In this document: in pieces, positions 18,171 to 37,046 of the stretch
Layout of the letters: each line of letters begins with the position of its first letter
Numbering within the stretch: the first letter of the stretch is position 1
Assembly (NCBI RefSeq): GCF_036208045.1
Contig: NZ_CP121472.1
Coordinates: 2,243,531 to 2,307,530 of the forward strand
Source of the DNA: Thiorhodovibrio winogradskyi
GTDB taxonomy: Bacteria; Pseudomonadota; Gammaproteobacteria; Chromatiales; Chromatiaceae
Length of the DNA: 64,000 bases
Direction of reading: 5' to 3'
The notes under the pieces: model-generated
What the model was told of the DNA's origin: nothing
Databases searched by the model: none
Seen by the model: the letters and a program-made list of their open reading frames with translations, nothing else
Position numbers and translations under genes: made by a program

Positions 18171-18206
18171 GAAATCGGCGGTGGCGCATCGGGAACCCGG
18201 TGGCGA

Positions 18207-19160: not shown

Positions 19161-19201
19161 GTTAAGTATTTTTCGCGAATTTGACTTTGCCCGACTGTGG
19201 G

Positions 19202-19345: not shown

Positions 19346-19377
19346 TCGCTCGTTGGCGCGGAGGTAACGGACGCGGA

Positions 19378-19866: not shown

Positions 19867-20222
19867 GATGGTCAGTGCCTCGGTAAGCTTGGTTGGATGA
19901 AGACTGAGTCCGGATGTGATTGCCAACAATGAGAGCCAATCATGAGAGCCAGAGGTTCGAGCCAGGGGTTCGAGCCAAAGGTTAGAGTTTCAATAATCCG
20001 CGACGGGACACCATGAGTTCCCGATATCCGAACACAGCGCTCAGATGGTGCAGCAGGGCATGACCGCCCTGGTCGCGCCGAAAGGCGCGGGGGATTCCTA
20101 AACGAGCGCCGGAAGAGCAGTGGGCCGGGCGCGCGCGTCTCCGCCGCGGGTTCTGAGAAGGGGACGAGGTTCATCAAGGCACTCTGGCGGAAGGATGTGT
20201 TAAAGAAGGATGGGGTACAAAG

Positions 20223-20235
20223 GCGAATGATTCGT
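20223..20235. promoter_or_regulatory. Fur-like box GCGAATGATTCGT
   Basis: One mismatch from the palindrome. It is followed by GATAAAG, as at 57,031, marking the same point in the duplicated segment. It overlaps a GTG that could open the transglycosylase frame, which argues against that start. Confidence 0.55.
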
Positions 20236-20293
20236 GATAAAGTTTTTGTTGTCAAGACGGACGGTCGGGTCAAGCAACTTATGCAAGGCCGCG

Positions 20294-20935: not shown

Positions 20936-21101
20936 CCAATGGTCCGCGACGCCTTGGTCCGTCGTGCAAAGCGACTTGGCGTTGAGCGCTGGTCGAGAGC
21001 GCGTCGCTCCGAGGGCGACCGGGCCCGTGGCGTTCCACCTGAGCGGCGCCTTCACATCCAAGGCCCTATGTCAACACATGCGGGCGCGCAAGGCATGGCG
21101 A

Positions 21102-21374
21102 CTAGTGATCTTGACTTGGGTTGTTTCCGGGCGCCGATGGCGGCGGCCGCCGAGACCAAAGCTCACGGAATCCGCCCTCGCAGGAGAACTCGCGCAACAA
21201 GGCCCAGCGCCGGCCGCGCCGCGAGGGTGGCCCGGATAGAAAGGCGTCCCATAGCCAAGCGCAGAGGCGCGCGCGCAGCCGGCACGCCGGTTCCGCGCAC
21301 TGGTCCGGCTGGGGTGAAGGGGGAGTGGCGGCCTTGGTGTCCCGTGGTCGTGGCAGGTTATTGAGGTGTTTCAT
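21102..21374 (-). CDS. 90-aa Cys/Arg/Trp-rich small protein (copy A)
   Basis: The start overlaps the 3' end of the GGDEF gene by 17 bp and has a GGAGT site, so it is probably translationally coupled. The core is RLRARLCAWLWDAFLSGPPS followed by RRGRRWALLREFSC. Four copies of this core exist in the window, and this frame is the best conserved of the alternatives. Residues 1-30 are Pro/Arg-rich. I do not recognise it; the amphipathic Trp/Leu/Arg core could bind membranes. A non-coding origin cannot be excluded. Confidence 0.45.
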   Translation of the reverse strand: MKHLNNLPRPRDTKAATPPSPQPDQCAEPACRLRARLCAWLWDAFLSGPPSRRGRRWALLREFSCEGGFRELWSRRPPPSAPGNNPSQDH

Positions 21375-22488
21375 TGGATACACTCCGCTGCATGGATGCT
21401 TGATGGGTAATGGCCGCCGCAGCCGCGGCCGCCTGGATGAGCGGATGGGACTGGCTCTCTGTCTGGCGTTCCGCCGGGAGCTCCGCCCGGCCAGCCGCCT
21501 GTTCAGCCGCCGGTTCATCGCGCGTCCCCTCGCCAGGGTTTAGGTCTTCCCAGGCCATCACCGCGTCGCGACCGTTGCGCTTGACCCAATAAAGCGCCTC
21601 GTCGGCGCGTCTGAGGATCTCCTGGCCGGAACTGGCCCCGGCCCCCTGGCGTTCGGCGCCAGTGGCCAACTCCCGATCACTGGCGATGGTGTAGCCCATG
21701 CTGGCGGTGATGCGCAGGCCGCGCCCGTCGTCGAGGAGGATCTCGGTGTCATGCAGTCGCTCGCGCAAGCGCCGCAGAAAGGCGCCGGTGTCGGCCTTGG
21801 TCGTGGCCGGGAGGATGAGCGCGAATTCCTCGCCGCCGAGGCGCGCCGCGAGGTCGGTTTCGCGCGCATGCTCGCGTAGCAGGGCGCCGAGTCGGGCGAG
21901 CACGCGGTCGCCACCGAGATGGCCATGGGTGTCGTTGACCTTCTTGAAGAAGTCGATGTCCAGGATGACCACGGCGAAGGGGGTGCCATGGCGCCGGGAG
22001 TAGGCCAGGCTGGCGTCCAAGCGCTCCCAGAAATGGCGCGAGTTGTAGAGTCCGGTCAGGCGGTCGGTGATGGCTTCGCGGCGCAGGGATTCGTTCAGGC
22101 TGAGAATGCGCTCGGACTGACGATGAACCATTTCCTCGCGCGTGCGGATGCCGGCGCGCATGCGCTCAATGTCCCGTTTGAGGCGGTTCAGCTCGTTCTC
22201 GTCATCCGGGTCGTGGGGCTCGGGGGCGATCTTGATTGGCACGCGAAAATTGCCCTGCTTGAGCCCGGTCAACACGGATTGAATCTCGCGGATGTCGCGT
22301 TCGGCGATCCAAGGCATGAAAAACGGCAACAATGCATAGATGGCGACCAGGTTCAGCAGGGTGAAGATGCCCAGGAACTCGAGATGAACAATATGCAATC
22401 CGAACAGCAGCGGCCCGAAGGCGGCGTAGCCGAGCAGCAGAATGACGAACACCGACAGGCGCACGCGGTTGATCAGGCGAAGCTGCAT
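21358..22488 (-). CDS. Membrane diguanylate cyclase (GGEEF, copy A)
   Basis: A 376-residue protein. Two membrane helices (residues about 10-30 and 38-58), a HAMP-like linker (LTGLKQGNFRVPI) and a coiled segment lead to a GGDEF domain with DRLTGLYNSRHFWERLD, active-site ARLGGEEFAL and an RETD inhibitory site five residues before it. It should make c-di-GMP with product feedback. The C-terminal 60 residues are low-complexity. Copies B and C keep only its C-terminal and N-terminal halves respectively, so this is the one functional copy. Confidence 0.88.
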   Translation of the reverse strand: MQLRLINRVRLSVFVILLLGYAAFGPLLFGLHIVHLEFLGIFTLLNLVAIYALLPFFMPWIAERDIREIQSVLTGLKQGNFRVPIKIAPEPHDPDDENELNRLKRDIERMRAGIRTREEMVHRQSERILSLNESLRREAITDRLTGLYNSRHFWERLDASLAYSRRHGTPFAVVILDIDFFKKVNDTHGHLGGDRVLARLGALLREHARETDLAARLGGEEFALILPATTKADTGAFLRRLRERLHDTEILLDDGRGLRITASMGYTIASDRELATGAERQGAGASSGQEILRRADEALYWVKRNGRDAVMAWEDLNPGEGTRDEPAAEQAAGRAELPAERQTESQSHPLIQAAAAAAAITHQASMQRSVSNETPQ

Positions 22489-22530
22489 GGTGTCTTGATG
22501 TGGCCGGGGTGACAGGCATGGTTGACGCGG

Positions 22531-22728
22531 TCAGGGGTGCAGGCCCAGGGTGAGGGCGGGCCATTGACTGGTCAGGGATTCCGCTGGTGGCAACCACAGC
22601 AGGCCGGCTAGCATCAGCCCAACAATGACGACCGAGGTGAGCATGGAAGGGCCTTGATGCGTACGCGGGAGTTGCTTGATTCCGAGGCATCTTGGGGGCT
22701 TACGGCTGGTGGTGGGCAGGGTTGGCAT
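22531..22728 (-). CDS. Small membrane protein upstream of GGDEF gene (copy A)
   Basis: A 65-residue protein with a GGAGT ribosome site. The N-terminal half is Pro/Arg-rich and the second half holds one helix (MLTSVVIVGLMLAGLLWLPP). It precedes the GGDEF gene by 42 bp and lies behind a Fur-like box. An intact paralogue is in copy C; copies B and D are broken. Function unknown. Confidence 0.5.
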   Translation of the reverse strand: MPTLPTTSRKPPRCLGIKQLPRTHQGPSMLTSVVIVGLMLAGLLWLPPAESLTSQWPALTLGLHP

Positions 22729-22813
22729 CGCTTGGACTCCAGTGGCGGGGTAAAAAACGGTGACATGTCGGCAAGGCGGCTTGACAGCCATGATTTGGCA
22801 CAGTACTATAAAA

Positions 22814-22826
22814 GCGAATGATTCGC
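22814..22826. promoter_or_regulatory. Fur-like box GCGAATGATTCGC (perfect)
   Basis: A perfect 6-1-6 palindrome between the divergent small membrane protein and the 117-aa gene relic. It fits the TGNGAATNATTCNCA form of Fur boxes known in several proteobacteria. Confidence 0.65.
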
Positions 22827-22881
22827 AAAACGTATTTTGTTGGTTATGCTGTCATGACCCTTGGTCACGGGAGATTTCGCC

Positions 22882-23060
22882 ATGCCCGCTGCCGATCCGC
22901 AAATCACCGCCAACCCCTTTTCCACGCATGCCCTGGCCGCACGCCGGCGCAAGATCGAAAAGCACCCGATCCAAGGTGGCGGCAGACAACCTCTGGCTTG
23001 AGAACTCGGCGCCGCCGGGGCACGCGATTTCACAGCCAGCGTGAGTTGTTGAAGTCCTTA
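22882..23060 (+). pseudogene. Relic of the 117-aa gene (copy A)
   Basis: It begins with a good AGGAGATT-like site and MPAADPQITANPFSTHALAA, as in the intact gene at 50,618. A 1-base deletion after the Ala codons shifts the frame and it stops at 23001. The LWLE segment remains in the old frame. Confidence 0.6.
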
Positions 23061-23080
23061 ACCGCAATCTGCAAGGGAGA

Positions 23081-23401
23081 CTCTACACCCCGCTGCAATA
23101 CCTGCCGGCGTTAACCGGCGTCGCGCTGGTGCTGGTGCTGGTGCTGGTGCTGGCGCTGGCGCTGGCGCAGTTTGGTCCCGAGCGGCTGAAAGGGCGCTTT
23201 CGCCTCTCGCTTCATCTGCCGCTGCGCGGTGACTGGCTGGTGTGAAGTTGGGTGGTGGTCGGTGCCCTGTTCGGCGCCTTGTTGAGCAGTCTGACCGCAC
23301 TGGGGCTTTACCTGCTGATCGGCCAGTGGTTCCCGCGCGAGGCGGCATTCAGCGCGGTGCTGACGGCGCTGCCCTGGTTGCTGGGCGGTTGGGTGGCCTA
23401 T
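23081..23401 (+). pseudogene. ABC permease relic
   Basis: It matches the permease at 9.54-9.84 kb (LYTPLQYLPALTGVAL, then RFRLSLHLPLRGDWLV) with a Trp-to-stop change, TGG to TGA. A hexanucleotide run (GCTGGT/GCTGGC, seven units at 23125-23166) has expanded where the intact gene has two units. Confidence 0.8.
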
Positions 23402-23854
23402 ACTCACCCCGCTGGAGCTGCCCGGTTATGACCCGGAGCGCATGGAGCTGAAACTTCTGTTTAATCCGCTCGATCCACCGCCATATGCTCCGACCGCCAG
23501 GAGATTCACGCTATCGCGATGGATCGCGAGTTAAGATCCATTGCTCGGTATCAGCGGCGCATAGCCATGGCCGCACCGCGTTTGGTTGATACCCTGTGGG
23601 ACAGCCTGATCCCCGTCAGCCTGCATTGGCGCACGCCCGAGTCGCGCTATCCGCGCCTGACGCCGCAATGGCATGATGAGAATGCCGCCATCGGCATGGG
23701 CATCGCCTTGGTCTTGGCGCTCGCCTGGCCGCGCTGGCGCCGCGCGCACTTGCTCGGCAATTGGGCGTCCCTGATACTGGTGGCCCTGACCGGATTCCTC
23801 GGCCTCATCGAACTCCTTTTGTTTCCGCCGGAAGCCGAATCTGCGTCTTCTTGA
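23402..23854 (+). pseudogene. DUF4857 gene relic (3' third)
   Basis: After a deletion joining the permease to the middle of the DUF4857 gene, the sequence follows 10,860-11,314 closely, through LVDTLWDSL and the last two helices to the same stop (PEAESASS). A small deletion near 23,470 breaks the frame. Confidence 0.8.
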
Positions 23855-23879
23855 CTTTTGGAGCCGAACCACATGCCCT

Positions 23880-24420
23880 GAATGCCCGGCATTGGATGTT
23901 AAAGCAACAACGCCAACTGCAGCGGCAACTGTCGAAGCGCTTGCGTCAATTGCAGGCCGCACCCAGTGATACGACAGCGAGTGTCTTGGTCAGTTTCTTT
24001 TACGGCGTGTTGCATGCCACCAGATCCGGGCATGGCAAAGTCGTTATTTGAACCTACTTGCTCACGCATCGACAAGGTGCCCGCGAGATGGCGGTGGGCA
24101 TCCGTCCCTGCACCGGCGCGGTGATGGTGCTGGGTGTGGCCAATTTGTTGAATCTTTGGTTGGCGGGAATATTTGCTGTGCTGTCCATGTCGATTGGAAC
24201 GGCCATCACGGTCTTGATGTTGGCCATCCTGGCGATCCAGACTAATCACCTGCTGGCGCGCCTGCCGTACCAGCAGCGCCCTTACTGGCGCCTCCTGGGC
24301 CCAATAGGCGCCATTGTTGGCGGCTTGATGAACCTCGCGGGCGGCTTGTTGCTGTTGCAAGACAGTGCCAAGGCACCATCCCATCCGCTGTTATCCGCTC
24401 AGACATCCCAGGTCGAAGAT
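23880..24420 (+). pseudogene. NicO-family nickel/cobalt exporter relic
   Basis: The first part, RQLQRQLSKRLRQLQ then SFFYGVLHATRSGHGKVVI, is the start of a NicO/RcnA-family exporter; its next helices are deleted and the frame resumes as REMAVGIRPCTGAVMVLGVA with a second conserved helix (GIFAVLSMSIGTAITVLML). An in-frame stop follows VVI. The family exports Ni2+ or Co2+ and normally sits beside DUF1007, whose broken copy is at 11.3 kb. Confidence 0.75.
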
Positions 24421-26582
24421 GGATCAACCCGCAGCAAGCGCGAGGAATTGGCCAGAATGCCCAGCGTGTGCAGGATGTGGATCAGCCCGCCCATGGTCGG
24501 GCTGAGCCGTCCGAGGGCGCCGAAGCCGATGCCGATCAGATCGGTGCCCACCGCCAGCGCGTAGTTCTGATCGGCGGTGCGCAGGGTGATACGGCTGAGC
24601 TGGCGCAGGGCGAACAGCTTGCCGATGTCGCTGTCGGCCAGTGCGATGTCGGCCACCTCGACGGCGACTTCCGAGCCGCCGGCGCCCATGGCGATGCCAA
24701 CATCGGCCTCCGATAGCGCCAGGGCGTCGTTGACGCCGTCGCCGATCATCACGATGGCGCCGCCGGACTCGGCGCGCAACTGGCGCACCACGGTGGCCTT
24801 GTCCTCGGGCAGCAAGTCGGCGTGACAGGCATCCAGCCCCAGTTCGCGGCTCAACCCCTCGGCGACGCCGCGCTCGTCGCCCGAGATCAGAACCAGGTGT
24901 TCGACCCCAGCGGCCCGCAGCCGGGCGATGGTCTCGCGTGTGCCGGAGCGCAATTGGTGGCGAATGCCGATCACGCCCTGGAGGACGCCATCGAGCGCCA
25001 GATAGACCAGCGTCAGTCCGCGCGCGCGCAGCCGATCCGCTGCCGCCGCCAAGGGCCGGGAGTCGATACCGGCCTCGGCCAGCAGCCGGGCGTTGCCGAG
25101 CAGCACTTGGCGGCCATCGACTTCGGCCTTGACACCGTGACCGAGCAGATGCTCGCTCTTGCTGTGTTCTTGCAGTTCGATCTCCAGTGCTTGGGCATGG
25201 GCGACGATGGCATGGGCGAGCGCGTGCGGATTGTGCCATTCAGCCGAACCTGCCCAATGCAGCAGGGCGCGCGGATCATCGGCTACCACCTCGGCCACTT
25301 CCGGCGCGCCGGTGGTCAGGGTGCCGGTTTTGTCAAAACACCAGATCGACGCCTGGCCGACCTGCTCCAGCGCGGCGCCGCCCTTGATCAGCATCTGGCG
25401 CCGGGCGGCGGTGTAAATGGCGGCGCTGACTGCGGTCGATGCGGCGAGCACCGTCGAGCAGGGACAGGACATGATGAGCATCACGGTAAAGGCGCGCGTC
25501 AGACTTCGGGTGAGCACGAAAGTGCCCAAGGTCATCAAGCTGCCCAGACGCAGCAGGCGCGTGGCCAGCAGGTCAGCGCGCTCTTGCAGCGGGGCTTTGT
25601 CGTCCAGCGCCTGATCCACCAAGGCGGCGATGCGGGCCAGATAGGTGTGCTCGCCGACCGATGCTGCACGCACCCGCAGCACCCCCTGTTCCAAATAGCT
25701 GCCGGCATACACCATGTCGTCGCGGTTCTTGAGCACCGGCTCGGCACGGCCGGTGATCACCGCCTCGCTGACCTCGGCTTGACCGTCTTCGACTCGCCCA
25801 TCGACCGGGATCTTCTCGCCGGTGCGCACCACCACCAACATGCCGGGTAGGATCTCGGCGACCGGCACCCTCAGCTCGCTGCCATCGACCAGCACCCAGG
25901 CATCCTTGATGGAGAGCGCCAGCATGTCGCGGATGGCGCGGCGTGAGCGTTCGGCTACGAATCGCTCTAGCAGCCGCCCGCCGGTGAGCACATAGATGAT
26001 CTCGAAGGCGGTGGCCGCCTCGCCAAAGCCGATCGCCAGCAACAGCGAAAAGGCCAGGAATTGATGCAGGGTGAAGCGCTTCTCGACCGTGGTTTCGTAC
26101 CAGGCATCGCGCAGCAGCGGCACGGCGGCGATGAGTGCCACGCCGCCAGTCAAACTCATCGCGCCGCCGGCCAGCGGGCGCTTGAGCAGATGCTCGCGCA
26201 CCAGGATGACACACAGATAGCCGGTCAGCAGGGCAAAGCCGAGCAGGCGCCACAGCCAGGAGCGGCGGCCAACTGCGGCTTGCCGGGTTGAACCGACGCC
26301 TTGGCGACAGGCGCGGCAAGCGATGCGGCGCGGGCTTGGGTGCGCGGCTGGAATGGGCGTGCCCAAGAGGGCGTGCAGGGAGGCTTCGATCTCCTCGCGC
26401 CGGAGACGATCCGGCTGCCAGGTGACGATCAGGGCGCCGCAGGCAGGATTGATCCGCACTCGCACACCGCCGTCGAGTGTTAGCAAACCGGCGTTGAGTC
26501 GTTCGCCGAGTAAGGGATTGTGCCGCAGGATTGAAATGCGCAGCCGCAGGCGACCGGGAAGAGAGTGTTGCACACGGATCAT
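24399..26582 (-). CDS. P1B-type metal ATPase, CtpC-like
   Basis: A 727-residue pump. The N-terminal HMA-like domain lacks CxxC (HSLPGRLRLRISILRHN, RINPACGALIVTW). Membrane motif CPC is in MSCPCSTVLAAS, the phosphorylation site in FDKTGTLTTG, and the hinge in GDGVNDALALSEADVGIAMG. The usual SEHP motif reads NPHALA. The C-terminal membrane pair ends NSSRLLRV, as in CtpC-type Mn/Fe-group ATPases rather than copper pumps. Direction is probably export of a divalent metal. Its first 20 codons recur as a relic at about 48,530. Confidence 0.88.
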   Translation of the reverse strand: MIRVQHSLPGRLRLRISILRHNPLLGERLNAGLLTLDGGVRVRINPACGALIVTWQPDRLRREEIEASLHALLGTPIPAAHPSPRRIACRACRQGVGSTRQAAVGRRSWLWRLLGFALLTGYLCVILVREHLLKRPLAGGAMSLTGGVALIAAVPLLRDAWYETTVEKRFTLHQFLAFSLLLAIGFGEAATAFEIIYVLTGGRLLERFVAERSRRAIRDMLALSIKDAWVLVDGSELRVPVAEILPGMLVVVRTGEKIPVDGRVEDGQAEVSEAVITGRAEPVLKNRDDMVYAGSYLEQGVLRVRAASVGEHTYLARIAALVDQALDDKAPLQERADLLATRLLRLGSLMTLGTFVLTRSLTRAFTVMLIMSCPCSTVLAASTAVSAAIYTAARRQMLIKGGAALEQVGQASIWCFDKTGTLTTGAPEVAEVVADDPRALLHWAGSAEWHNPHALAHAIVAHAQALEIELQEHSKSEHLLGHGVKAEVDGRQVLLGNARLLAEAGIDSRPLAAAADRLRARGLTLVYLALDGVLQGVIGIRHQLRSGTRETIARLRAAGVEHLVLISGDERGVAEGLSRELGLDACHADLLPEDKATVVRQLRAESGGAIVMIGDGVNDALALSEADVGIAMGAGGSEVAVEVADIALADSDIGKLFALRQLSRITLRTADQNYALAVGTDLIGIGFGALGRLSPTMGGLIHILHTLGILANSSRLLRVDPSSTWDV

Positions 26583-26757
26583 GAAAAAGAGGCTCTCAAT
26601 AACACGGATTCAGCACAGCAAAAAGCGAAGCCGCATCAAAAAATTACAAATAACAACAATTCTTATTTATAATCCTTTTCGGCGGCTCGCGCAAATCGGT
26701 GATCGCAAGCCATGCGGTCAAACGTGGGCCTTTGGTTATCTCGTGACGGGAATCCTT
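26583..26757 (+). promoter_or_regulatory. Divergent promoter region of P1B ATPase and flavodoxin
   Basis: An AT-rich block at 26,640-26,690 contains AATAACAACAATTCTTATT, a partly symmetric 19-mer that could be a Fur-type site; flavodoxins are classically Fur-repressed. The assignment is weak. Confidence 0.3.
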
Positions 26758-27282
26758 ATGAATATCGGCATCTTTTACGGCTCGACAGGAGGCAACACTG
26801 AAAACGTGGCACGTCTGATTCGCAGGCAGCTTGGTGGCAAGGAAATCACGCTGATCAATGTCGCCTCGCTGCAAGATGCACAATCCATGCAGGATTACGA
26901 TCTGCTGGTCTGGGGTTGCCCGACCTACGGCGATGGCGAATTGCAGGACGACTGGGATCTGCTGGAGCCACGACTGGATGACGTCGACCTGCGTGGCAAG
27001 CTCGTGGCCATTTTCGGACTCGGCGACCAAGAGGGCTATGCGCACAAATTTGTGGATGCCATCGGCATTCTGCACGAACGGGCGCTCGATTGCGGCGCGG
27101 ATACCATTGGTCATTGGTCGGATGAGGGCTACGACTACGAGGCCTCGCGTGCCCTGATTGCTGAGAGTCTGTTGTGCGGGCTGGCCATTGATGAAGACAA
27201 CCAAAGCGAATTGACCGAGGAGCGGGTGTCGCGGTGGTGCGCGCAAGTGCTCGAGGAAACCAGGGTCATGCTCGGACCCTAA
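26758..27282 (+). CDS. Flavodoxin (long chain)
   Basis: A 174-residue FMN protein. The phosphate loop is GSTGGNTENVARLI near residue 8; FMN-flanking loops follow around WGCPTYGDGELQDDW and GLGDQEGYAHKF. The size fits long-chain flavodoxin. It replaces ferredoxin as a low-potential electron carrier when iron is short, consistent with the neighbourhood. An upstream-extended frame is rejected because homology starts at MNIGIFYGS. Its 3' end occurs as relics at 15.9, 28.3 and 48.6 kb. Confidence 0.92.
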   Translation: MNIGIFYGSTGGNTENVARLIRRQLGGKEITLINVASLQDAQSMQDYDLLVWGCPTYGDGELQDDWDLLEPRLDDVDLRGKLVAIFGLGDQEGYAHKFVDAIGILHERALDCGADTIGHWSDEGYDYEASRALIAESLLCGLAIDEDNQSELTEERVSRWCAQVLEETRVMLGP

Positions 27283-27484
27283 ACCGCCGGAACCTCTCGC
27301 ACGCGTGCATCAAGCGAGTTTCCCACCAAGGCGGGCAGGATTATGATTCCTGTCAGGGATTGCCCGGGCGATGGTGACGGCGAACCGCAACACGCCCATA
27401 TTCGAGAGACTTCGGATGACGTTGGCGCTGGGCGGTTTCCGCGCCCCGCGCACTCCCTGTTGCTTTCACCAAGGAGGTTGAAGT

Positions 27485-28243
27485 ATGTCCCTTGCTCAAG
27501 AAGATCTGAATCATATCAAGCAGGAAATTGGCCTTTATGTGAAGGAAAATATCAGCGCCTGGTTGGCTGAGCAAAGCCTCGGCAAGCCGCCGGTGGTTTA
27601 TGAGATTGAACTGCGCGAGCGGATGGTGCGGGTTGATGATGAACTGAAAAACCAGCGCGAGTTGATGCGCGAAGGCTTCAACCAGATGGACAAGCGCTTC
27701 GAGCTGATGCATGCGAACATGGACAAGCGCTTTGAGCTGATGCAGTCAAGCATGGACAAGCGCTTTGAACAGGTCGAGAAACGCTTCGAGCAGGTTGACA
27801 AGCGCTTCGAGCAGATCGACAAACGCTTCGAACAGATCGACAAGCGCCTTGAGCTGATGCAAGCGGATATGGATAAACGCTTCGAGCAGGTTGACAAGCG
27901 CCTTGAGCTGATGCAAGCGGATATGGATAAACGCTTCGAGCAGGTTGACAAGCGCCTTGAGCTGATGCAAGCGGATATGGATAAACGCTTCGAGCAGGTT
28001 GACAAGCGCCTTGAGCTGATGCAAGCGGATATGGATAAACGCTTCGAGCAGGTTGACAAACGCCTTGAGCTGATGAAAGCAGACATGGATAAACGCTTCG
28101 AGCAGGTTGACAAGCGCTTTGAGGGCGTGCAGCAAGACATCCGCGCTTTGCAACTGCGCATGGATCACTTCATGCGCTGGTCGTTTGGTGTCACCATGGG
28201 CACCGGCGGTCTGATTGTTGGCATCCTAAAACTCTGGCCCTGA
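27485..28243 (+). CDS. Tail-anchored coiled-coil protein with expanded repeats (copy B)
   Basis: A 252-residue paralogue of the 15.3-kb gene with the same head, the same C-terminal helix (FGVTMGTGGLIVGILKLW) and the same AAGGAGG start region. The extra length comes from five near-identical 54-bp repeats encoding DKRLELMQADMDKRFEQV, an 18-residue (7+11) coiled-coil unit, on top of the heptads. The near-identity of repeats at DNA level shows recent expansion, so length probably varies among strains. Confidence 0.8.
   Translation: MSLAQEDLNHIKQEIGLYVKENISAWLAEQSLGKPPVVYEIELRERMVRVDDELKNQRELMREGFNQMDKRFELMHANMDKRFELMQSSMDKRFEQVEKRFEQVDKRFEQIDKRFEQIDKRLELMQADMDKRFEQVDKRLELMQADMDKRFEQVDKRLELMQADMDKRFEQVDKRLELMQADMDKRFEQVDKRLELMKADMDKRFEQVDKRFEGVQQDIRALQLRMDHFMRWSFGVTMGTGGLIVGILKLWP
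27839..28108 (+). repeat. 54-bp coding tandem repeat, five units
   Basis: Units start at 27839, 27893, 27947, 28001 and 28055 with GACAAGCGCC or GACAAACGCC. The first four are nearly identical in bases, the fifth has a few changes. The period is a multiple of three, so the frame is kept. Confidence 0.9.
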
Positions 28244-28263
28244 GCCGGCGTGGGCGAGGCGCT

Positions 28264-28390
28264 TCAACCAAAGTGAATTGACCGAGGAGCGCCTGTCACG
28301 GTGGTGTGCGCAAGTGCTCAAGGAAGCCAGAGATGATCGACCACCAGCACGCGCTGGCTAGTTCTGGGTGGAGGTTGCAGCATGAAATCG
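28264..28390. pseudogene. Fused relics: flavodoxin 3' end and REC-EAL 5' end
   Basis: 28,268-28,335 repeats the flavodoxin tail (LTEERLSRWCAQVLKEARD). At about 28,336 it jumps to the antisense start of the REC-EAL gene, matching 18,122-18,190 (CCACCAGCACGC, then GGAGGTTGCAGCATGAAATC). Almost all of the regulator gene is deleted in this copy. Confidence 0.75.
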
Positions 28391-28419
28391 GCGCGGGCGC
28401 ATCGGGGACTTGGTAGCGA

Positions 28420-29277
28420 TCAGCAGTCCGTGCAAGAGGTCGGATTGACGATGGGCAATTCAGCGGGCTTCGAGGAGGGGAGTCGGCCATGGTTCGCTTG
28501 GGGCAGTTCGAGTGCCAGAGCCCGGCGGTGATCCGGCGTGGTCACCGGGATGTGTTGCACCTTGGGCTTTGGAGCGGCGTTCCAGGTATCCACAAACTCC
28601 GCCATCCCGGGGATGCTCCCGCGTCTGGTGGTTATCGTGTTGCGGCCGTCGGCGATGCGAACCACCCATTGCCAATCGGCCGGGACGTCGGTTGCTTGGT
28701 CGAGGCTAGGGCCTGGTTGGGAGCCTGGTTGGGAGCCTGGTTGGGAACGGCGATGCGGCGCGGCCGTCAGCCGGGGCAGCACATCGGCGGCGGCGAGATG
28801 ATAGCCGCCAGCGTTGAGTCGGGAAACCCTGACCTTCGGCGACCAGCGCGCGGCATCCATGGTCCAGCGCAATTCAAGCGCACAACCCTGGGCCGGGCAG
28901 CGACCGAGTGGAATGGTCAACTGGTCGTCCTGCTGTAAGGCGGCCACGGCCATGCATTGCAAGGCTACTTGAACCTGGCCGATGGTGCCGGGTGGCAGGG
29001 TGGCGAAAACGGTGCCGCTGTCGCTGTGGGTGCCGAACAGAATCATGCGGCCTTGAACGCGAGCTTGCCGCGGATCGACATCGAATTCGAGCCAGCCACC
29101 GTCGGATTTCAACTCAGGGGCGGCGACCGCGGGCGCCAGCGGCGCGACCAGACCGAGGCACAACCAGAGCGCAAGGACAAGGCCTGTACCCGCCCCGCGG
29201 ACAGGCATGCGGGGCAGGGGTCGATCCCGGCGATGGCGAGCGGGAGTGCGAGCAAAGAGATGCGCGATCTTCGACAT
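28420..29277 (-). CDS. Secreted Cys-containing protein of unknown function (copy B)
   Basis: A 285-residue paralogue of the 18.2-kb protein. It has a signal helix ending APAVAA, then LKSDGGWLEFDVDPRQARVQ, LQCMAVAALQQDDQLTIPLG, GRCPAQGCALELRW, a PGSQPGSQPGS linker and a terminal SCTDC. Differences between copies are scattered and mostly conservative, so both frames are likely expressed. It diverges from the cytochrome c/azurin pair around one Fur-like box, which suggests co-regulation. Family unknown to me. Confidence 0.72.
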   Translation of the reverse strand: MSKIAHLFARTPARHRRDRPLPRMPVRGAGTGLVLALWLCLGLVAPLAPAVAAPELKSDGGWLEFDVDPRQARVQGRMILFGTHSDSGTVFATLPPGTIGQVQVALQCMAVAALQQDDQLTIPLGRCPAQGCALELRWTMDAARWSPKVRVSRLNAGGYHLAAADVLPRLTAAPHRRSQPGSQPGSQPGPSLDQATDVPADWQWVVRIADGRNTITTRRGSIPGMAEFVDTWNAAPKPKVQHIPVTTPDHRRALALELPQANHGRLPSSKPAELPIVNPTSCTDC

Positions 29278-29347
29278 GGTTCGACTCCTTGGCGATGAGG
29301 CAATGACGGTCAGCGACTTGACAAGTCCAGCACCATAATAACAAAAT

Positions 29348-29360
29348 GCGAAGCATTCGC
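29348..29360. promoter_or_regulatory. Fur-like box GCGAAGCATTCGC (copy B)
   Basis: Lies 70 bp before the secreted-protein start on one side and 50 bp before cytochrome c on the other. It is identical with its copy-A counterpart over AAAATGCGAAGCATTCGCGT. Confidence 0.62.
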
Positions 29361-29410
29361 GTTAATGATTTTGCGCGGATTCTGCTTAACCTGACTGTGG
29401 GAAATGTCGC

Positions 29411-29734
29411 ATGAAGACTTCTGTTGTTCGTCTCCATTGGATCTTGGTTGGTGGCCTGGCCTTGGCGGCGGGCGGGCCAGCGCAGGCCGATCTTGAACTC
29501 GCCCAACAAAGTGGCTGTACCATCTGCCACGGCGTCGATCAGGGCATTGTCGGCCCGTCTTACAAGGAGGTGGCCGCCAAGTACAAAAGTGATCCCAGTG
29601 TCGTCGCTACCCTGGTTGCCAAGGTCAAGGCTGGCGGCGCGGGGAACTGGGGCGAGGTGCCCATGCCGCCAAATTCCCCCCAAGTGAGCGATGAGAACAT
29701 CCGCAAACTGGTGGAATGGGTGCTCAGTCTATGA
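29411..29734 (+). CDS. Small class I cytochrome c
   Basis: A 107-residue periplasmic protein. The signal peptide ends AQA at about residue 26. The heme site is CTICH near residue 36, and the Met ligand lies in VPMPPN near residue 84, as in cytochromes c551/c552. Its stop overlaps the azurin start (ATGA), so the two are coupled and may exchange electrons or act in one redox chain. It is deleted in copy A. Confidence 0.9.
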   Translation: MKTSVVRLHWILVGGLALAAGGPAQADLELAQQSGCTICHGVDQGIVGPSYKEVAAKYKSDPSVVATLVAKVKAGGAGNWGEVPMPPNSPQVSDENIRKLVEWVLSL

Positions 29735-30216
29735 GCCATTGGGTTGGGTTTGTGCCGAGGCGTGGCGCGCCGGTGCGGCGCACCCTCGCCATGGCGCTCG
29801 CCGCGGGGATCAGCCTGGATCTCAATGCGACGTGCCAGTTTGTCATGGATGTCGATGATTCCATGAGGTTTCCGGTGGGTGAACTGCACGCCAGCGCCGA
29901 GTGCTCCACGATTGAACTGACCCTGCGCCATCACGGCCATCTTCCCAAGCTCTCCATGGGTCGGAACTGGGTGCTGGTGCGCGGCGAGGATGTGCTCGGC
30001 ATTGCTTTTGACGGGATGGCGGCGGGCTCTGTCAATGACTATCTTCGTCCCGGAGACCATCGGGTTGTGGCACACACGGCCATGATCGGCCCTGGAGAGC
30101 AGGCTCGAGTAGAGTTTTCGCCACGCGATCTCACCCCTGGAGAAGATTATCGTTACTTTTGCAGCTTTCCCGGGCATTGGGCGGTGATGACCGGGCGTTT
30201 CATTCTCCATCCTTGA
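29731..30216 (+). CDS. Azurin-family protein lacking ligand His46
   Basis: A 161-residue protein with a signal peptide (about 33 residues, ending DLNA) and a full azurin fold: disulfide Cys pair (CQFVMD and AECSTIEL), FDGMAAG, YLRPGDHRVVAHTAMIG and the ligand loop YFCSFPGHWAVM with Cys112, His117 and Met121 (azurin numbering). The segment that in azurin is MGHNWVL reads MGRNWVL, so the first histidine copper ligand is Arg. The codon is CGG, two changes from a His codon. It may bind no copper, another metal, or act without metal. Coupled to cytochrome c. Confidence 0.85.
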   Translation: MSHWVGFVPRRGAPVRRTLAMALAAGISLDLNATCQFVMDVDDSMRFPVGELHASAECSTIELTLRHHGHLPKLSMGRNWVLVRGEDVLGIAFDGMAAGSVNDYLRPGDHRVVAHTAMIGPGEQARVEFSPRDLTPGEDYRYFCSFPGHWAVMTGRFILHP

Positions 30217-30267
30217 TTTTGCGCGTGAGTTTCCGCCGCGCAGTGGTACTGCTTGGGTTCCTAATGG

Positions 30268-30744
30268 TCATGGATGGGGCTTTATCGCTTCCGCGCTTGC
30301 CGCCATCACCGCTTGGAACTGCTCGGGCTCAAGAATGGCGCGGAAACGATTCAGAGCTTGGATACGGATATCAGTGGCCTCGCGCTTCAAGCGCGTCAGT
30401 TCGTCGAGCTGATCCGCGACCGCACTGGCATTTTTGCCCCGCTCAATCACTGCCTGGTAAATGGCTTTTTCAAGCTGCCACGCCGCCTGCACACGCGGAT
30501 GAAGTTGGGGTGGATAAACCTCCCTAACTTCTCGGTGCAGACGATCCATTTGTTCCGGCCTGATTCCAAACCGATCCGGGGCGTCGACGATAATCCGCAT
30601 CGGGTGGGGTAGAACGACCAGCTCACCGACAAGGAAGCCTGGGCGACTGAGGGTGTGATCAGGACTGATGACAGGCTCGGCCTGACCAGGACCGCTGGTT
30701 AGCATCAGGGACAGCGAGATCAGAAATGTGAATCGGATGTGCAT
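30268..30744 (-). CDS. Spy/CpxP-like periplasmic protein (copy B)
   Basis: A 158-residue paralogue of the 19.4-kb gene. The signal peptide ends GPGQA. The helical core contains FGIRPEQMDRLHREVREVYP and ILEPEQFQAVMAAS. It converges on the azurin gene with a 51-bp gap. Spy/CpxP-fold proteins act as periplasmic chaperones or metal-stress sensors. Confidence 0.72.
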   Translation of the reverse strand: MHIRFTFLISLSLMLTSGPGQAEPVISPDHTLSRPGFLVGELVVLPHPMRIIVDAPDRFGIRPEQMDRLHREVREVYPPQLHPRVQAAWQLEKAIYQAVIERGKNASAVADQLDELTRLKREATDIRIQALNRFRAILEPEQFQAVMAASAEAIKPHP

Positions 30745-31087
30745 GCTTTAAGTGCCTCGGAAGCTTGGTCTGCTGAAGAGTGAAGTAACAGTTAAAAATT
30801 CGTGATACAGCCTTAGTCGTCAAGAAAGCTGTCAGAGGCACCTATGATTCTATACATATAGCGCATGATTGCGATGCGATGCGATTCGGTGCAGGCGGCA
30901 TGGCAGTGCAACAAGCGAATCGCTGGATGCAGGTGACAACCTGTTTTGATTTGTGAAATGCCATGTCATGACGCCACATGATGATTTGCGTGAAAAATAC
31001 AAAACAGAATACGATCAATTTGCGATAATATGAAGGTAGCAGTCAAAATGCCTTCTGTCAACAAGTGCGTGCTCACAAACATCCTGA
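30745..31087. other. Intergenic region, remnant of segment
   Basis: No gene. A half Fur-like site (AAATTCGTGATAC near 30,800) matches the end of the box at 20,223. GCGCATGATTGCG at 30,861 is a poor match to the palindrome. The right part (CAACAAGTGCGTGCTCAC onward) is shared with copies A and D. Confidence 0.5.
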
Positions 31088-31357
31088 CTACAGATCTTGG
31101 TCTGGTTGGTTTCTGGACGGTGATGGCGGCCTTTGCCGAGATCGAATGACGCAGTCGTCTTTTTTACAGGAGAGTTCCCGCAACAAAGCCCAGCGCCAGT
31201 AGCGCCGCGAAGGCGGTCCGGACAGAAAGCCGTCCCACAGCCAGGCACACAGCCGCTCCCGCAGCCTGCATGCTGGTTGCGCGGACTGGGGTGGGGGTGC
31301 CTGGGGACTGCCGGACTCGGCGTCATCCAGCCGTATGTGGTTATGACTGTGTTTCAT
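31088..31357 (-). CDS. 90-aa-type small protein (copy B)
   Basis: An 89-residue frame with core RLRERLCAWLWDGFLSGPPS and RRYWRWALLRELSC, starting MKHSHNHIRLDD. A GGAGAG site lies 12 bp upstream (5 bp from an in-frame GTG at 31366). Its start overlaps the end of the GGDEF remnant, as in copy A. Function unknown. Confidence 0.42.
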   Translation of the reverse strand: MKHSHNHIRLDDAESGSPQAPPPQSAQPACRLRERLCAWLWDGFLSGPPSRRYWRWALLRELSCKKDDCVIRSRQRPPSPSRNQPDQDL

Positions 31358-31875
31358 GCGGTGCACTTCTCTCCGGGGAAAGTCTGATGACTGTTCGTGG
31401 TCACTCCCAGGGTGGCCTTGATGAGCGAATGGGCCGGCTTTGTTGACTGGTGTTTTGGCTTGGCTTTCTGGCCGGTCATCAAGGATCTCCTCGCCAGGTT
31501 CAGGTCATCCCAGGCCATCACCGCGTCGCGACCGTTGCGCTTGACCCAATAAAGCGCCTCGTCGGCGCGTCTGAGGATCTCCTGGCTGGAACTGGGCCCG
31601 GCGCCCTGGCGTTCGGCGCCAGTGGCCAACTCCCGATCATTGGCGATGGTGTAGCCCATGCTGGCGGTGATGCGCAGGCCGCGCCCGTCGTCGAGGAGGA
31701 TCTCGGTGTCATGCAGTCGCTCGCGCAAGCGCCGCAGAAAGGCGCCGGTGTCGGCCTTGGTCGTGGCCGGGAGGATGAGCGCGAATTCCTCGCCGCCGAG
31801 GCGCGCCGCGAGGTCGGTTTCGCGCGCATGCTCGCGTAGCAGGGCGCCGAGTCGGGCGAGCACGCGGTCGCCACC
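31354..31875 (-). pseudogene. GGDEF gene relic, C-terminal half (copy B)
   Basis: It retains RETDLAARLGGEEFALI to the C-terminus but the membrane helices and the first half of the GGDEF domain are gone; the frame is fused to small-membrane-protein sequence at about 31,876 (GGGTGG). The deletion removes the substrate-binding DxLTGL region, so it should be inactive. Confidence 0.78.
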
Positions 31876-32020
31876 CACAGCAGGCCGGCTAGCATCAGCC
31901 CAACAATGACGACCGAGGTGAGCATGGAAGGGCCTTGACGCGTGCGTGAGAGTTGCTTGATTCCGGGCATCTTGGGGGTTTGCGGCTGGTGGTGGGCAGG
32001 GTTGGCATCGCTTGGACTCC
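31876..32020 (-). pseudogene. Small membrane protein relic (copy B)
   Basis: It starts MPTLPTTSRKPPRC as in copy A but a single T deletion shifts the frame. The helix LTSVVIVGLMLAGLLW is preserved in another frame and runs into the GGDEF relic. Confidence 0.6.
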
Positions 32021-32094
32021 AGTGGCGGGGTAAAAAAACGGTGACATGTCGGCAAGGCGGCTTGACAGCCATGATTTGGCACAGTACTCTAAAC

Positions 32095-32107
32095 GCGAAT
32101 GATTCGT
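32095..32107. promoter_or_regulatory. Fur-like box GCGAATGATTCGT (copy B)
   Basis: One mismatch from the palindrome, at the same place as the copy-A box. It is the nearest candidate operator upstream of the CbiX-like/heme cluster, 261 bp before its first gene. Confidence 0.6.
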
Positions 32108-32162
32108 AAAAAGCATTTTGTTGGTTATGCTGTCATGACCCTTGGTCACAGGAGATTTCGCC

Positions 32163-32340
32163 ATGCCCGCTGCCGATCCGCAAACCACCGCCAACCCCTT
32201 TTCCACGCACGCCCTGGCCGCAAGCCGGCACAAGATCGAGCAGCACCCGATCCAAGGTGGCGGCAGACACCCTCTGGCTTGAGAACTCGGCGCCGCCGGG
32301 GCACGCGATTTCACAGCCAGGGTGCGTTGTTGAAGTCATT
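32163..32340 (+). pseudogene. Relic of the 117-aa gene (copy B)
   Basis: It opens with MPAADPQTTANPFSTHALAA and ends after 39 codons by the same frameshift as copy A. It lies directly before the CbiX-like gene. Confidence 0.6.
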
Positions 32341-32367
32341 AACCGCAATTTGCAAGGGAGACATTCG

Positions 32368-33336
32368 ATGATCCAATGGCGTGGTTATTCTCGATCAGCG
32401 CCGGCGCCGGTACTGGCACTGGCACTGGCACTGGCACTGGCACTGATATGCGCCTTGCTGCTGGGTGGCGCGACTGGTTGTTCCAATGAAGCATCCAGCG
32501 CCACCCTGGGCGTTGAACCGACGGATAAGGTCGGCGTGCTGCTGGTCAGTCATGGGTCGCGCTCCAAGCGCTGGCGCCAGATGCTCCTTGATGTCGAGCA
32601 GGCGGTGCGCGAACCCTTGCTGGACATGCCGGAGGTGGAGGCGGTGCGCAGCGCCTTCATGGAAGAAAGCGAGCCCTCGATCACCACCCAGCTCAAAGCC
32701 TTCGACCGCGAGGACTTCGATGCCATCATCCTGGTGCCGGTGTTCCTCACGGTGAGTTCGCACTCGGTGAATGACATCCCGACCATCGTCGGCATGCAGT
32801 CCAACCCCGAAACCCTTGAGCGTCTGACCAAGGAAAAGATCGCCATCTACCGACCCCAGGCGCGCGTCACCCTGGTGCCGACGCTGGATTTCACCACCCT
32901 GCTCAAGGATAACGTCACCGCGCGCGCCGAACGGCTGATCGAACAACCCGAGGACACTGGTGTGGTGCTGGTGGCCTATGGCGATGCCCGCTACAACCAG
33001 CAGTGGGAAGAACTGATGAGCGAACTTGGCCGGGCGCTCAAGGCCAAGCTTGGGATTGAGACGGTCGCCTACGCTTGGTGCGGACATTTGGTTGACTACT
33101 CGCCCGAGCCAACCCAGCGCGCCATCGAGCAGGTCTTGGAGCTGGAACCCCGGGCCGCAGTGCTGCCGCTGCTGGTGGCCTATGATCCCATGTTCCAGGA
33201 CGACGTCATCGGCGCGGCCGTGGAGCAAAGTCCGCGCTCCGACGACATCCTTTACCGGCCCGACGCCATTCTGCCGGACGAGAATCTGCATCGGTGGATC
33301 CTCGACATCGTCCAGCAAACACTGGTGGAGTCCTAA
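32368..33336 (+). CDS. Exported CbiX-like tetrapyrrole chelatase
   Basis: A 322-residue protein preceded by AAGGGAG. The N-terminus is a hydrophobic Leu-Ala run (residues about 12-33) ending GGATGCSN, a lipoprotein-like site, so it is exported. Two CbiX/SirB-type domains follow: the first has LLVSHGSRSKRW with the catalytic His at about residue 62, plus FMEESEPSI and VPVFLTVSSHSVNDIP; the second (VVLVAYGDARYNQQW) has lost that His. Cytoplasmic CbiX inserts Co2+ or Fe2+ into sirohydrochlorin; an exported one next to a heme receptor suggests metal removal from, or insertion into, a tetrapyrrole in the periplasm. Confidence 0.85.
   Translation: MIQWRGYSRSAPAPVLALALALALALICALLLGGATGCSNEASSATLGVEPTDKVGVLLVSHGSRSKRWRQMLLDVEQAVREPLLDMPEVEAVRSAFMEESEPSITTQLKAFDREDFDAIILVPVFLTVSSHSVNDIPTIVGMQSNPETLERLTKEKIAIYRPQARVTLVPTLDFTTLLKDNVTARAERLIEQPEDTGVVLVAYGDARYNQQWEELMSELGRALKAKLGIETVAYAWCGHLVDYSPEPTQRAIEQVLELEPRAAVLPLLVAYDPMFQDDVIGAAVEQSPRSDDILYRPDAILPDENLHRWILDIVQQTLVES
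32413..32442 (+). repeat. CTGGCA hexanucleotide run in the signal segment
   Basis: Five perfect CTGGCA units encode alternating Leu-Ala in the hydrophobic core of the chelatase signal sequence. Changes in unit number would keep the frame but alter helix length. Confidence 0.85.
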
Positions 33337-33363
33337 ACGGGCGCATTGCAGCGCCATACCCAA

Positions 33364-34803
33364 ATGTCAACGGCGATGATCAGCAAGCATCGGGTGATCA
33401 GGTTATGGCGGCGCTGGCTCGCCACGATGGTCCTTGCTGCCGCGCTCATTGGATTCGGGTTGCAAACCACCGAACGCGGCGAGGACCCGCGGCCACCTAA
33501 ATATCTGGCCGATCCCGCGCATCAAGTGCCCTGTCTGCTCGACGCAAGCGAGGGTGCTGGGTGCGACATTGGATTCACCGCCGCGCATGGCCTGACCGAG
33601 GATCCGACCTGGCGTGGCGAGGGCCATGGGCTGCTGGGGCGGTCGCCGCCAGCACCGGCCCCCTTCGGGTTGGCTGTGGACGCGCGCAATGATCCGGTGC
33701 TCTCGGACGCGGCGGGCGCGGCCCTGCTGCGCCGAGCGCGCACCCAGGAACCCGATGCGCATCGCTTGGATCTGCGTCCAGGCGCGGAGCACAGTGTTGT
33801 CGAACGTCGCGATGCGCGGGGACGCTATCGCGGCCTGTATCTGGACAATGTCGAGCTTGAGAGCCGCGTCCGCGGGTTCGCCGGCCCAATCGAGCTTGGC
33901 GTGTATGTTGATGAGCAGGGGCGTATCCGCAAGCTGGTGCATCTGGATTCCCGCGAGACGCCGAGCTACCTGCGCCAGCTCGCAGACGCCGGCTTTTATG
34001 CACGCTTCAGCAGATTGCCCGTGGATCGGGCCGAGCATCGCGTCGACGCGGTCAGCGGCGCGACCCTGACCTCCCGCGCCCTCGCCGCGGGGCTGACCGA
34101 GTTGGTCGCCGTCGCCGAGGATCCGCTTGGCGACTATCTGGAGGCATCGCCCCGCGGCTTCGCGGTCGTGGCGCGGCTGTCGAACGCGTGGATCGGCCAT
34201 GCACTGCTGTTGCTTGGACTCTTTGTGCTGGCTTGGCAAGGACGCGGGGCACTCAGTGGCGCCGACTGGCGGCTGCACGGGCTACTGGCGATCGGTGTGC
34301 TCGGGCTGCTGCTCAACGACGCCTTCACCTATGTGACGCTGATGCAGCCTTTGTTCGGCGTCACTCTGTCGGCCTTTGCCACCCTTTACCTGGTTCTGGT
34401 GCTGCTGGGCGCGATCTGGGATGACAACACTTATTGTCGGCGCATCTGCCCCTTCGGCCAGGCACAGCGGTGGGTCGCGCGCTGGGATCGCGGCTCACGC
34501 CTGAACCGCTGGCCGTTGTCGAACCGACGCATGCGCCAACTGCGCCGACTGCTGACGCTGGTCTTGATTGTGGGGATTCTCGCCGGTTTCGAGCACTGGC
34601 GTGGATTCGAGTTGTTTCCCGATCTGTTTGGCTTCGATGCCGGTTCGCCGTGGTTTTTGCTGGCGCTCTTTCTGGTGCTGCGGGTGGGTGCCTGGATCCC
34701 CATGCTGTGGTGTCGCCTGCTGTGCCCGACCGGCGAGGCGCTGGATACGCTTGCAAGCCTGATGCGGCCAGGCCGTGATAAAAACATATCGTGTAATAAA
34801 TAG
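33364..34803 (+). CDS. FMN-binding, CxxxCP membrane protein (NosR/PceC-like)
   Basis: A 479-residue protein (ATG 33364, or 33376). An N-terminal helix is followed by a periplasmic FMN-binding domain whose flavinylation site DAVSGAT (Thr at about residue 234) fits ApbE-type covalent FMN attachment. About five helices follow, with two CxxxCP motifs (CRRICPFGQ and CRLLCPTGE) typical of NosR, NapH and PceC. No ferredoxin domain follows. Such proteins carry electrons across or along the inner membrane to periplasmic partners. Its position between chelatase and heme receptor suggests it supplies electrons for heme processing. Confidence 0.82.
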   Translation: MSTAMISKHRVIRLWRRWLATMVLAAALIGFGLQTTERGEDPRPPKYLADPAHQVPCLLDASEGAGCDIGFTAAHGLTEDPTWRGEGHGLLGRSPPAPAPFGLAVDARNDPVLSDAAGAALLRRARTQEPDAHRLDLRPGAEHSVVERRDARGRYRGLYLDNVELESRVRGFAGPIELGVYVDEQGRIRKLVHLDSRETPSYLRQLADAGFYARFSRLPVDRAEHRVDAVSGATLTSRALAAGLTELVAVAEDPLGDYLEASPRGFAVVARLSNAWIGHALLLLGLFVLAWQGRGALSGADWRLHGLLAIGVLGLLLNDAFTYVTLMQPLFGVTLSAFATLYLVLVLLGAIWDDNTYCRRICPFGQAQRWVARWDRGSRLNRWPLSNRRMRQLRRLLTLVLIVGILAGFEHWRGFELFPDLFGFDAGSPWFLLALFLVLRVGAWIPMLWCRLLCPTGEALDTLASLMRPGRDKNISCNK

Positions 34804-34940
34804 CAGCAGTCGAGCCAGCGCCATCATGCGGAATGTTCCCTTGGCTGCCTTGGTTTTCTCTCGTTGTGGCATTGGCCCGATGCAACCGCCAGCGCCTCGG
34901 AGTTGGCTGGTTGCTTGGGCGTTTTTTTGGAGATTTAGCC

Positions 34941-37046
34941 ATGATCCGTGTCAATCAACCTGGGGCTTTTGACCAATCACGCATGCTTGGCCAGATTCGG
35001 CGTTGTGAGATACCGCGCTGGTTTGTCGGCCTCGCTCTTGGTATCTGGTTAAGCGTGCCACTCGGCCCGGCCCGGGCGGAGACTGATTCCCAAGCCATCT
35101 TGCCAACCCTCACCGTCACCGCCACCAAAAGCGAGCGCGCCCTCGCATCCCTGCCAGAATCGGTGAGCGTGGTGCCGCGCGAGCAGTTCGAGCGGTTTCA
35201 GCCCGATGACCTTGGCGGAGTGCTCAAGGGTCTGCCCAATGTCGCAATCGGGGGTGGGCCACGTGGTATCGGCCAGCAGATCGCGGTGCGCGGCCTGAGC
35301 GACGAGCGTTTGTTGTTCTTGCTCGATGGGGCGCGTCAAGACTTTAGTCGCGCTCATAACGCGCGCCTGTTCATCGACCCCGAGCTGCTGCGCCAGGTCG
35401 ATGTGGTGCGCGGCCCGGCCTCGGCGCTCTGGGGTAGCGGCGCGCTCGGCGGCGTGATCGCGCTGGAAACCTTGGACGGCGCCGAGCTGTTGGCCCCCGG
35501 CCAGTCGCTGGGCGGGCGCGTCAAAACCGGTTATCAGGATGGCGACGGACAATGGCTGGGCAGCACGATGCTGTATGGCGCCAACGATCAGGGATGGGAC
35601 GGACTGCTCAGCCTGAGCGGTCGCCAGGCTGGCGATATGCGCCTTGGTGACGGGGCGGATTTAGCGCATTCCGGTTTTCGCGAGCTGTCCGGTCTGGGCA
35701 AGGTCAATTGGCGTCCGGATGGGCGCAACGGTTTCGGGATCAGCGTGCTGGCCGGCGAGATCGATGGCGAGGTGCCCTCGAACCCGCAGACCGAGGCCAC
35801 GGACGACAATCTGGTCGATCGCACCACCCGCCAGTCACATATCGCGCTGCGCTACGAGCGCGAGCAGCCGCTCAATACCTGGCTGCAGCCGTCGCTGCTG
35901 CTGTATCGCAATCACACCGACATTGACGAGCGGCGGCTGTTTGACGGGCGCCACGACCAGACTGACTTCGAGACCCTGGGCCTGGATCTGCGCAATCGCG
36001 CGCTGCTGGGTGGCGACGGACCCTGGTCGCATGTCCTGACCATGGGGTTGGACGCCTACCGCAATCGCGCCGAGGCGACACGCGATGGAGAGGCGCGCGA
36101 CAGCTACCCGGATGGACGCACCCAGGTGGTGGGTTTGTACTTACAGGATGAAATATCGCTCGGCGAGCGCTGGACGCTGATTCCGGGGTTGCGCTGGGAC
36201 AACTATCGCAGCGAAGCCGATGCCGCCGATATCGCCGATAACCAAGACAGCGCATTCTGGGTGAAATTCGGTGTCAATGTCGCACTGACCGATTGGTTGT
36301 CTTTGCAAGCCCTGTACAACGAAGCCTTCCGCGCGCCCTCGATCAGCGAGCTGTTCGTCTCGGGAGTGCACTTCACCTGCGGACCGGGCTGCGCCAATCT
36401 GTTCGTGCCCAATCCGAACCTCAAGCCCGAAAAAGCGCACAACACTGAGTTGGGCCTGCGCCTGCATCGCGACGGCTTGCTGACCCCGGCGGATCGCGGC
36501 GATCTGCGCGTGGCGGTGTTTCGCAACGATGTCGATGACTTCATCGACCAGATCGTTGACTTCAGCATGCACCCGGTACCAGGCAATCCAGGGCGCGGCG
36601 GCGTGACTGGTTTCGTCAATGTCGGCTCGGCCCGCCTCCAAGGCTTTGAAGTCGAGGCAAGCTATCAAGCCCCGCGCTGGTTCGCGAACGCGAACTATGG
36701 TCAAACGCGCGGCGAGGATCGCCACAGCGGCGAGCCTCTGTCGGCGATCGAGCCCGATCAATTGACGCTGCAGGCCGGACTGCGTTTTCCAATGCGCGAC
36801 ATCGATCTGGGCGCACGCGCCCGACTGGTGGCCGCCCAGAATCGGGTGCCGGAAGGCGGCACGCCCTCGGACGCCTACCAGCTCTATGATCTGTGGCTGA
36901 GCTGGAACCCGGCGTCGGGTCGCGGCCAGGGTCCCAGCCTGAATCTCGCCGTGGATAATCTACTCGATGCCGACTATCAGCCCTATCTCTCCGCGCTGCC
37001 AGGCCCGGGGCGCAATATCAAACTGACGCTGGCGTATCGGTTTTGA
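34941..37046 (+). CDS. TonB-dependent heme receptor, HmuR-like
   Basis: About 701 residues from the ATG after TTGGAGA. The signal peptide ends PARA, the TonB box is in LPTLTVTATKSE, the plug contains VDVVRGPASALWGSGALGG, and the barrel ends in Phe (LAYRF). The heme-receptor signature is complete: FRAP (EAFRAPSISELF, about residue 460), then a His in GVHF (about residue 476), then NPNL (VPNPNLKPEK). In HemR/HmuR these boxes and that His are needed for heme transfer. The upstream frame extension into the previous gene's end is rejected. Confidence 0.9.
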   Translation: MIRVNQPGAFDQSRMLGQIRRCEIPRWFVGLALGIWLSVPLGPARAETDSQAILPTLTVTATKSERALASLPESVSVVPREQFERFQPDDLGGVLKGLPNVAIGGGPRGIGQQIAVRGLSDERLLFLLDGARQDFSRAHNARLFIDPELLRQVDVVRGPASALWGSGALGGVIALETLDGAELLAPGQSLGGRVKTGYQDGDGQWLGSTMLYGANDQGWDGLLSLSGRQAGDMRLGDGADLAHSGFRELSGLGKVNWRPDGRNGFGISVLAGEIDGEVPSNPQTEATDDNLVDRTTRQSHIALRYEREQPLNTWLQPSLLLYRNHTDIDERRLFDGRHDQTDFETLGLDLRNRALLGGDGPWSHVLTMGLDAYRNRAEATRDGEARDSYPDGRTQVVGLYLQDEISLGERWTLIPGLRWDNYRSEADAADIADNQDSAFWVKFGVNVALTDWLSLQALYNEAFRAPSISELFVSGVHFTCGPGCANLFVPNPNLKPEKAHNTELGLRLHRDGLLTPADRGDLRVAVFRNDVDDFIDQIVDFSMHPVPGNPGRGGVTGFVNVGSARLQGFEVEASYQAPRWFANANYGQTRGEDRHSGEPLSAIEPDQLTLQAGLRFPMRDIDLGARARLVAAQNRVPEGGTPSDAYQLYDLWLSWNPASGRGQGPSLNLAVDNLLDADYQPYLSALPGPGRNIKLTLAYRF

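Follow-up and report, generated by a model that had tools for sequence, protein, structure and literature searches.

What becomes of an azurin that has lost His46? Azurin is the textbook case of copper tuning by a protein, and one of its nearly invariant ligands for the metal is His46. The question is raised by a gene of Thiorhodovibrio winogradskyi that lies within a stretch of 64,000 nucleotides, here called the window, in which all unprefixed positions are counted. At 29731-30216 on the forward strand the window encodes an azurin-family protein that reads MGRNWVL where azurins read MGHNWVL, so that Arg (codon CGG) occupies the place of the equatorial His46 ligand of the blue (type 1) copper site.

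The identity of the gene as an azurin-family member with Arg in place of this copper ligand is confirmed. The ORF scores 141.8 bits against the TIGR02695 azurin profile (cut-off 105.1; profile positions 1-124 of 125) and 39.6 bits against Pfam Copper-bind. Its AlphaFold model (pLDDT 96.8, pTM 0.90) matches 1cuo with a Z of 24.3 and an rmsd of 1.1 over 129 residues, and solved azurins are 39-45% identical to it in sequence. The first-pass annotation, made from the same DNA, had described the loss of one ligand from an otherwise preserved site, and this description holds: CSFPGHWAVM (C112, H117, M121), both disulfide cysteines (ATC...AEC; C3, C26), DGMAAG, Gly45 and Asn47 are all intact, and the start of the protein resembles a signal peptide. 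When the window protein is compared with aligned azurins, no other conserved histidine stands in for His46; the usual azurin histidines are His35 and His83, and the His36 and His38 of the window protein are unusual and might be able to reach the site. A sequencing error was considered and ruled out, as it had been before. The CGG codon is two base changes from a His codon and is thus not a single-base misread, Arg recurs in a partial second copy of the gene described below, and the genome is a single contig.

The constancy of position 46 was assessed from 70 loci drawn from 84,980 species genomes, mostly by means of exact peptide seeds that include FPGHWAVM, with further azurins found in the same family (12 of its 210 genomes) and in the class (16 of 369, counting the window). 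Distant relatives from Verrucomicrobia and Planctomycetota were dropped, leaving an alignment of the window protein with 68 canonical azurins. His46 is present in all 68, and Arg in the window protein alone. The corresponding count for His117 is inflated because the seeds contain FPGHWAVM, whereas position 46 lies outside the seeds and its count is therefore unbiased. At least 90% of the 68 azurins agree in 28 columns, and the window protein differs at only one of these, His46. A profile search of the 369 class genomes gave azurin-like matches in 16, with His46 in all except the window (L115 reads MGHD). Plasmids yielded 11 azurin-like matches, and a degenerate DNA pattern for MG[R/H/Q]N applied to 398 genomes was too loose, its matches being near the control level. 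The MGHN tetrapeptide is reported to be almost perfectly conserved in Proteobacteria (PMC8779525). The nearest relative of the window protein, 57% identical and from the same family, has His46, and the change is therefore specific to the window lineage. His in close relatives had been named beforehand as an observation that would speak against the original claim; it is indeed present in the sister protein and in almost every family member, which makes the change lineage-specific and leaves the change itself in place.

Exceptions to His46 were otherwise confined to two paralogs encoded by a related genome, G021, whose three azurins comprise one canonical protein and two (L084 and L085) with Gln46 and either Thr or Ser at position 117. 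Both of these retain Cys112, Met121 and Gly45. Their genes are located at L086:7847-8341 and L087:8516-8962, each near a metal P-type ATPase, and a comparable third piece, broken and with two stops, is present in G020. In the tree, L084 and L085 form one branch (99/96), and the window protein pairs with a canonical His46 azurin, L073 (90/87), on an end branch of 0.96 versus 0.14 for L073. A single clade of the window protein with L084 and L085 was not rejected (p-AU 0.25), although two separate losses of His46, one in the window and one in G021, look likelier than one.

A large old duplication in the window bears on the age of the change. Copies A and B (15272-23775 and 23153-32327, with block identities of about 85 to 98%) cover a gene for a periplasmic protein, its promoter, an azurin piece and a Metal_resist-like gene. 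A second large duplicated block, at 43086-48042 and 52131-56983, has its two parts about 8.95 kb apart and 73-84% identical. At 19077-19308 on the forward strand, copy A has a promoter almost identical to the one preceding the cytochrome-azurin pair, followed by an azurin remnant of 35 codons (SMRRDWV); the cytochrome gene is deleted. The remnant, at about 19204-19308, reads HWLKLSMRRDWVRARGDDVLSIAVDGM. It lacks Gly45 and Asn47, both of which are kept in the intact copy, and it too has Arg at position 46 (codon CGC), as the first-pass annotation had noticed. Over the 35 comparable codons, remnant and intact copy differ by a dS of about 0.95, with a dN/dS of 0.30. Because the Arg is common to both, the change is old and predates the duplication, unless Arg arose twice, and the earlier view that this is not a fresh mutation is upheld. 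Copy A could, as it decayed, have acquired a His-to-Arg change of its own, since one transition suffices; this is the less simple reading.

The start codon of the azurin gene overlaps the TGA of the gene upstream (ATGA at 29731-29734), which bears out the coupling reported earlier between azurin and a cytochrome c. The latter is a small class I protein (c551/c8-like; 29411-29734, forward strand; PF00034, with weak c550/c551 matches) and the sole close homolog in its own genome. A Fur-like box region, AAAATGCGAAGCATTCGCGTTAATGATTTT (29335-29390), lies between this pair and a divergent gene for a conserved periplasmic protein (28420-29277, reverse strand). Within an otherwise diverged stretch, the box AAAATGCGAANCATTC is common to the promoters of copies A and B and of G080. 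Its presence in a homologous promoter of another genus favours the earlier suggestion of a Fur-like box before the gene; as a Fur box it scores at about the 98th percentile (top 2%) of random stretches, only moderately above chance. In G080 (L151:5947-6192) the same box and the start of cytochrome c are followed by a truncation that joins them to a response regulator GGDEF-EAL gene, and this shortened cytochrome c suggests repeated deletion at the locus. The divergent periplasmic protein has homologs in 10 of the 210 family genomes and matches nothing in Pfam or NCBIfam; an AlphaFold model made with two sequences (pLDDT 46.5) was unusable. Elsewhere its gene is found together with those for cytochrome c, the ATPase and azurin, and in several genera it is oriented divergently to the cytochrome c gene.

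Several other genes lie nearby. A P1B-type metal ATPase with an N-terminal HMA_2 domain (24399-26582, reverse strand; domain profiles) has homologs that in other genomes accompany azurin or a ligand-less azurin. Its HMA_2 domain starts MIRVQHSLPGRLRLR, and the enzyme may resemble the ferrosome FezB ATPases. It is followed by a long-chain flavodoxin (26758-27282, forward; TIGR01752, 193 bits) and by a coiled-coil protein of 54-base repeats (MDKRFEQVDKRLELMQAD) at 27485-28243, a shorter relative of which lies at about 15.3-15.8 kb. Beyond the azurin gene are a Metal_resist-like periplasmic protein (30268-30744, reverse; profile below cut-off), which also appears in other azurin neighbourhoods, a CbiX-like protein (32353-33336, forward; domain profile), a membrane protein with FMN-binding and Fer4_5-like regions (33346-34803, forward; Fer4_5 below cut-off) and a TonB-dependent heme-type receptor (34833-37046, forward; TIGR01785, 511 bits). 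The host, a purple sulfur bacterium, is phototrophic: it carries genes of the reaction-centre L/M type and a single HiPIP gene.

Such surroundings had been thought unusual for azurin. Within the family they are not, as in most genomes azurins adjoin TonB receptors, ExbD, PepSY, FecCD, Fur, flavodoxin or a metal P-type ATPase. At loci homologous to that of the window, cytochrome c occurs without an intact azurin in G105, G107 and G020, azurin occurs without cytochrome c in G054 and G021, and both are present in the window and in G120, an either-or pattern that suits interchangeable carriers. Two genomes of the same genus, G182 and G183, have neither azurin nor the divergent periplasmic protein nor a close ATPase homolog, and the azurin gene is therefore dispensable there.

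The explanation that we place first, and hold tentatively, is that the window protein is a maintained azurin derivative whose type 1 copper site has been altered specifically at His46, and that its operon encodes electron carriers that respond to iron. Its ancestor would have been an iron-free periplasmic electron carrier that served with, or instead of, cytochrome c under iron limitation, much as flavodoxin stands in for ferredoxin. The present protein would retain the docking face of azurin together with the sulfurs of Cys112 and Met121, and would have ceased to form a normal blue copper centre. The guanidinium group of Arg46 would most likely fill the pocket and form a pair with the thiolate of Cys112, leaving the protein without metal or with no more than loosely bound Cu(I), in the role of a partner-binding or metal-handling protein and not of a standard one-electron shuttle. 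On the evidence of its sequence, the protein has probably ceased to function as an ordinary blue-copper protein. Support for an altered-site derivative comes from the departure at His46 alone among the 28 conserved positions, and from the G021 paralogs, which have lost both His46 and His117 yet retain Cys112, Met121 and Gly45. The old, shared Arg, a dN/dS of about 0.14 (see below) and the confident azurin-fold model add to this, as do the occurrence of azurin or cytochrome c at homologous loci, the iron-gene neighbours and the phototrophic host. Counted against it are the long end branch, the Fur box score and the absence of the gene from G182 and G183.

Laboratory azurin H46 mutants still bind copper, and the loss of one ligand is therefore no proof that copper has been lost. 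Copper might be held by Cys112, His117 and Met121, assisted by the Gly45 carbonyl, water or a small anion, in a working three-ligand site of shifted potential, with the protein still shuttling electrons between a partner and the cytochrome c system. We regard this as possible but somewhat unlikely. It would account for the retention of all three ligands together with Gly45, Asn47 and the other conserved residues, and for the coupling to a cytochrome c gene. It sits less well with the presence of His46 in every other canonical azurin (68/68) and with the nature of Arg, a bulky cation that should repel copper; moreover, the additional loss of His117 in two family members suggests a route that leads away from type 1 copper.

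Doubtful, too, is the proposal that the family as a whole is in the course of losing azurin at this locus and that the window copy is inactive, in late-stage decay and on its way out. Azurin remnants in copy A and in G020, the shortened cytochrome in G080 and the restriction of azurin to 12 of the 210 family genomes all fit such a process, and the end branch of the window protein (0.96) could reflect relaxed constraint. However, 27 of the 28 conserved positions are retained even though Arg46 predates the duplication; an old Arg46 with the other 27 positions held since then speaks against simple decay. The overlapping operon is intact, with a signal peptide-like start and the promoter box in place, and dN/dS is well below 1 (about 0.14 between the window protein and L073, with dS near saturation). 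This low ratio, combined with the retention of the 27 positions after the old change to Arg, speaks for maintenance, and the sequence comparisons thus argue for a selectively maintained derivative and not a decaying gene.

That the site holds a different ion, such as Fe(II) or Zn, and has a ferroxidase-like role in iron uptake like Brucella FtrB is very improbable, for although the iron-gene setting, the oxidation of Fe2+ in vitro by FtrB, itself a cupredoxin without HHC ligands (PMC11966278), and the solved laboratory azurin 4hz1 with Fe(II) at its site lend it some appeal, the sequence is squarely that of an azurin, no FtrB-type acidic iron site was recognised in the window protein, and among the neighbours scanned at 24-37 kb neither an FTR1-type permease beside the gene nor an ftrABC(D) operon with such a permease was recognised.

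If the window protein is indeed a maintained derivative with an altered site, then a natural, long-maintained His46Arg azurin, taken with relatives that lack both histidines, would show what selection keeps once the copper site has been given up. It would also supply natural cases to set beside the azurin sites engineered over decades. In purple sulfur bacteria azurin recurs at iron-related loci, which suggests a possible iron-sparing electron-carrier switch. A broader conjecture, which we consider improbable as it stands, is that these bacteria evolved metal-free azurins. The His ligands would have been replaced repeatedly (by Arg, or by Gln together with Thr or Ser) at iron-related loci, with the Cys112-Met121 pair and the docking face kept, to give a thiol-based or partner-regulating periplasmic protein, in effect either a pseudo-electron-carrier by which the pool of cytochrome c is tuned or a carrier of soft metal or sulfane sulfur.

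Among known systems, FtrB of the FtrABCD iron uptake pathway resembles the window protein in combining a cupredoxin fold that has no full His-His-Cys site with an iron setting (PMC11966278). It differs in belonging to another family, in the absence of all HHC residues and in its acidic iron site, whereas the window protein keeps the Cys, one His and the Met. The G021 paralogs L084 and L085 come from the same bacterial family as the window protein and share with it the loss of His46, the retention of Cys112 and Met121 and a position near a metal P-type ATPase; unlike it, they have Gln46, have also lost His117 and occupy their own branch in the best tree. Azurin itself (TIGR02695; Pseudomonas aeruginosa 4azu, Methylomonas J azurin iso-2 1cuo) shares with the window protein the fold, the disulfide cysteines, Cys112, His117, Met121, Gly45, Asn47 and the docking loop, and differs from it in having His46 where the window protein has Arg.
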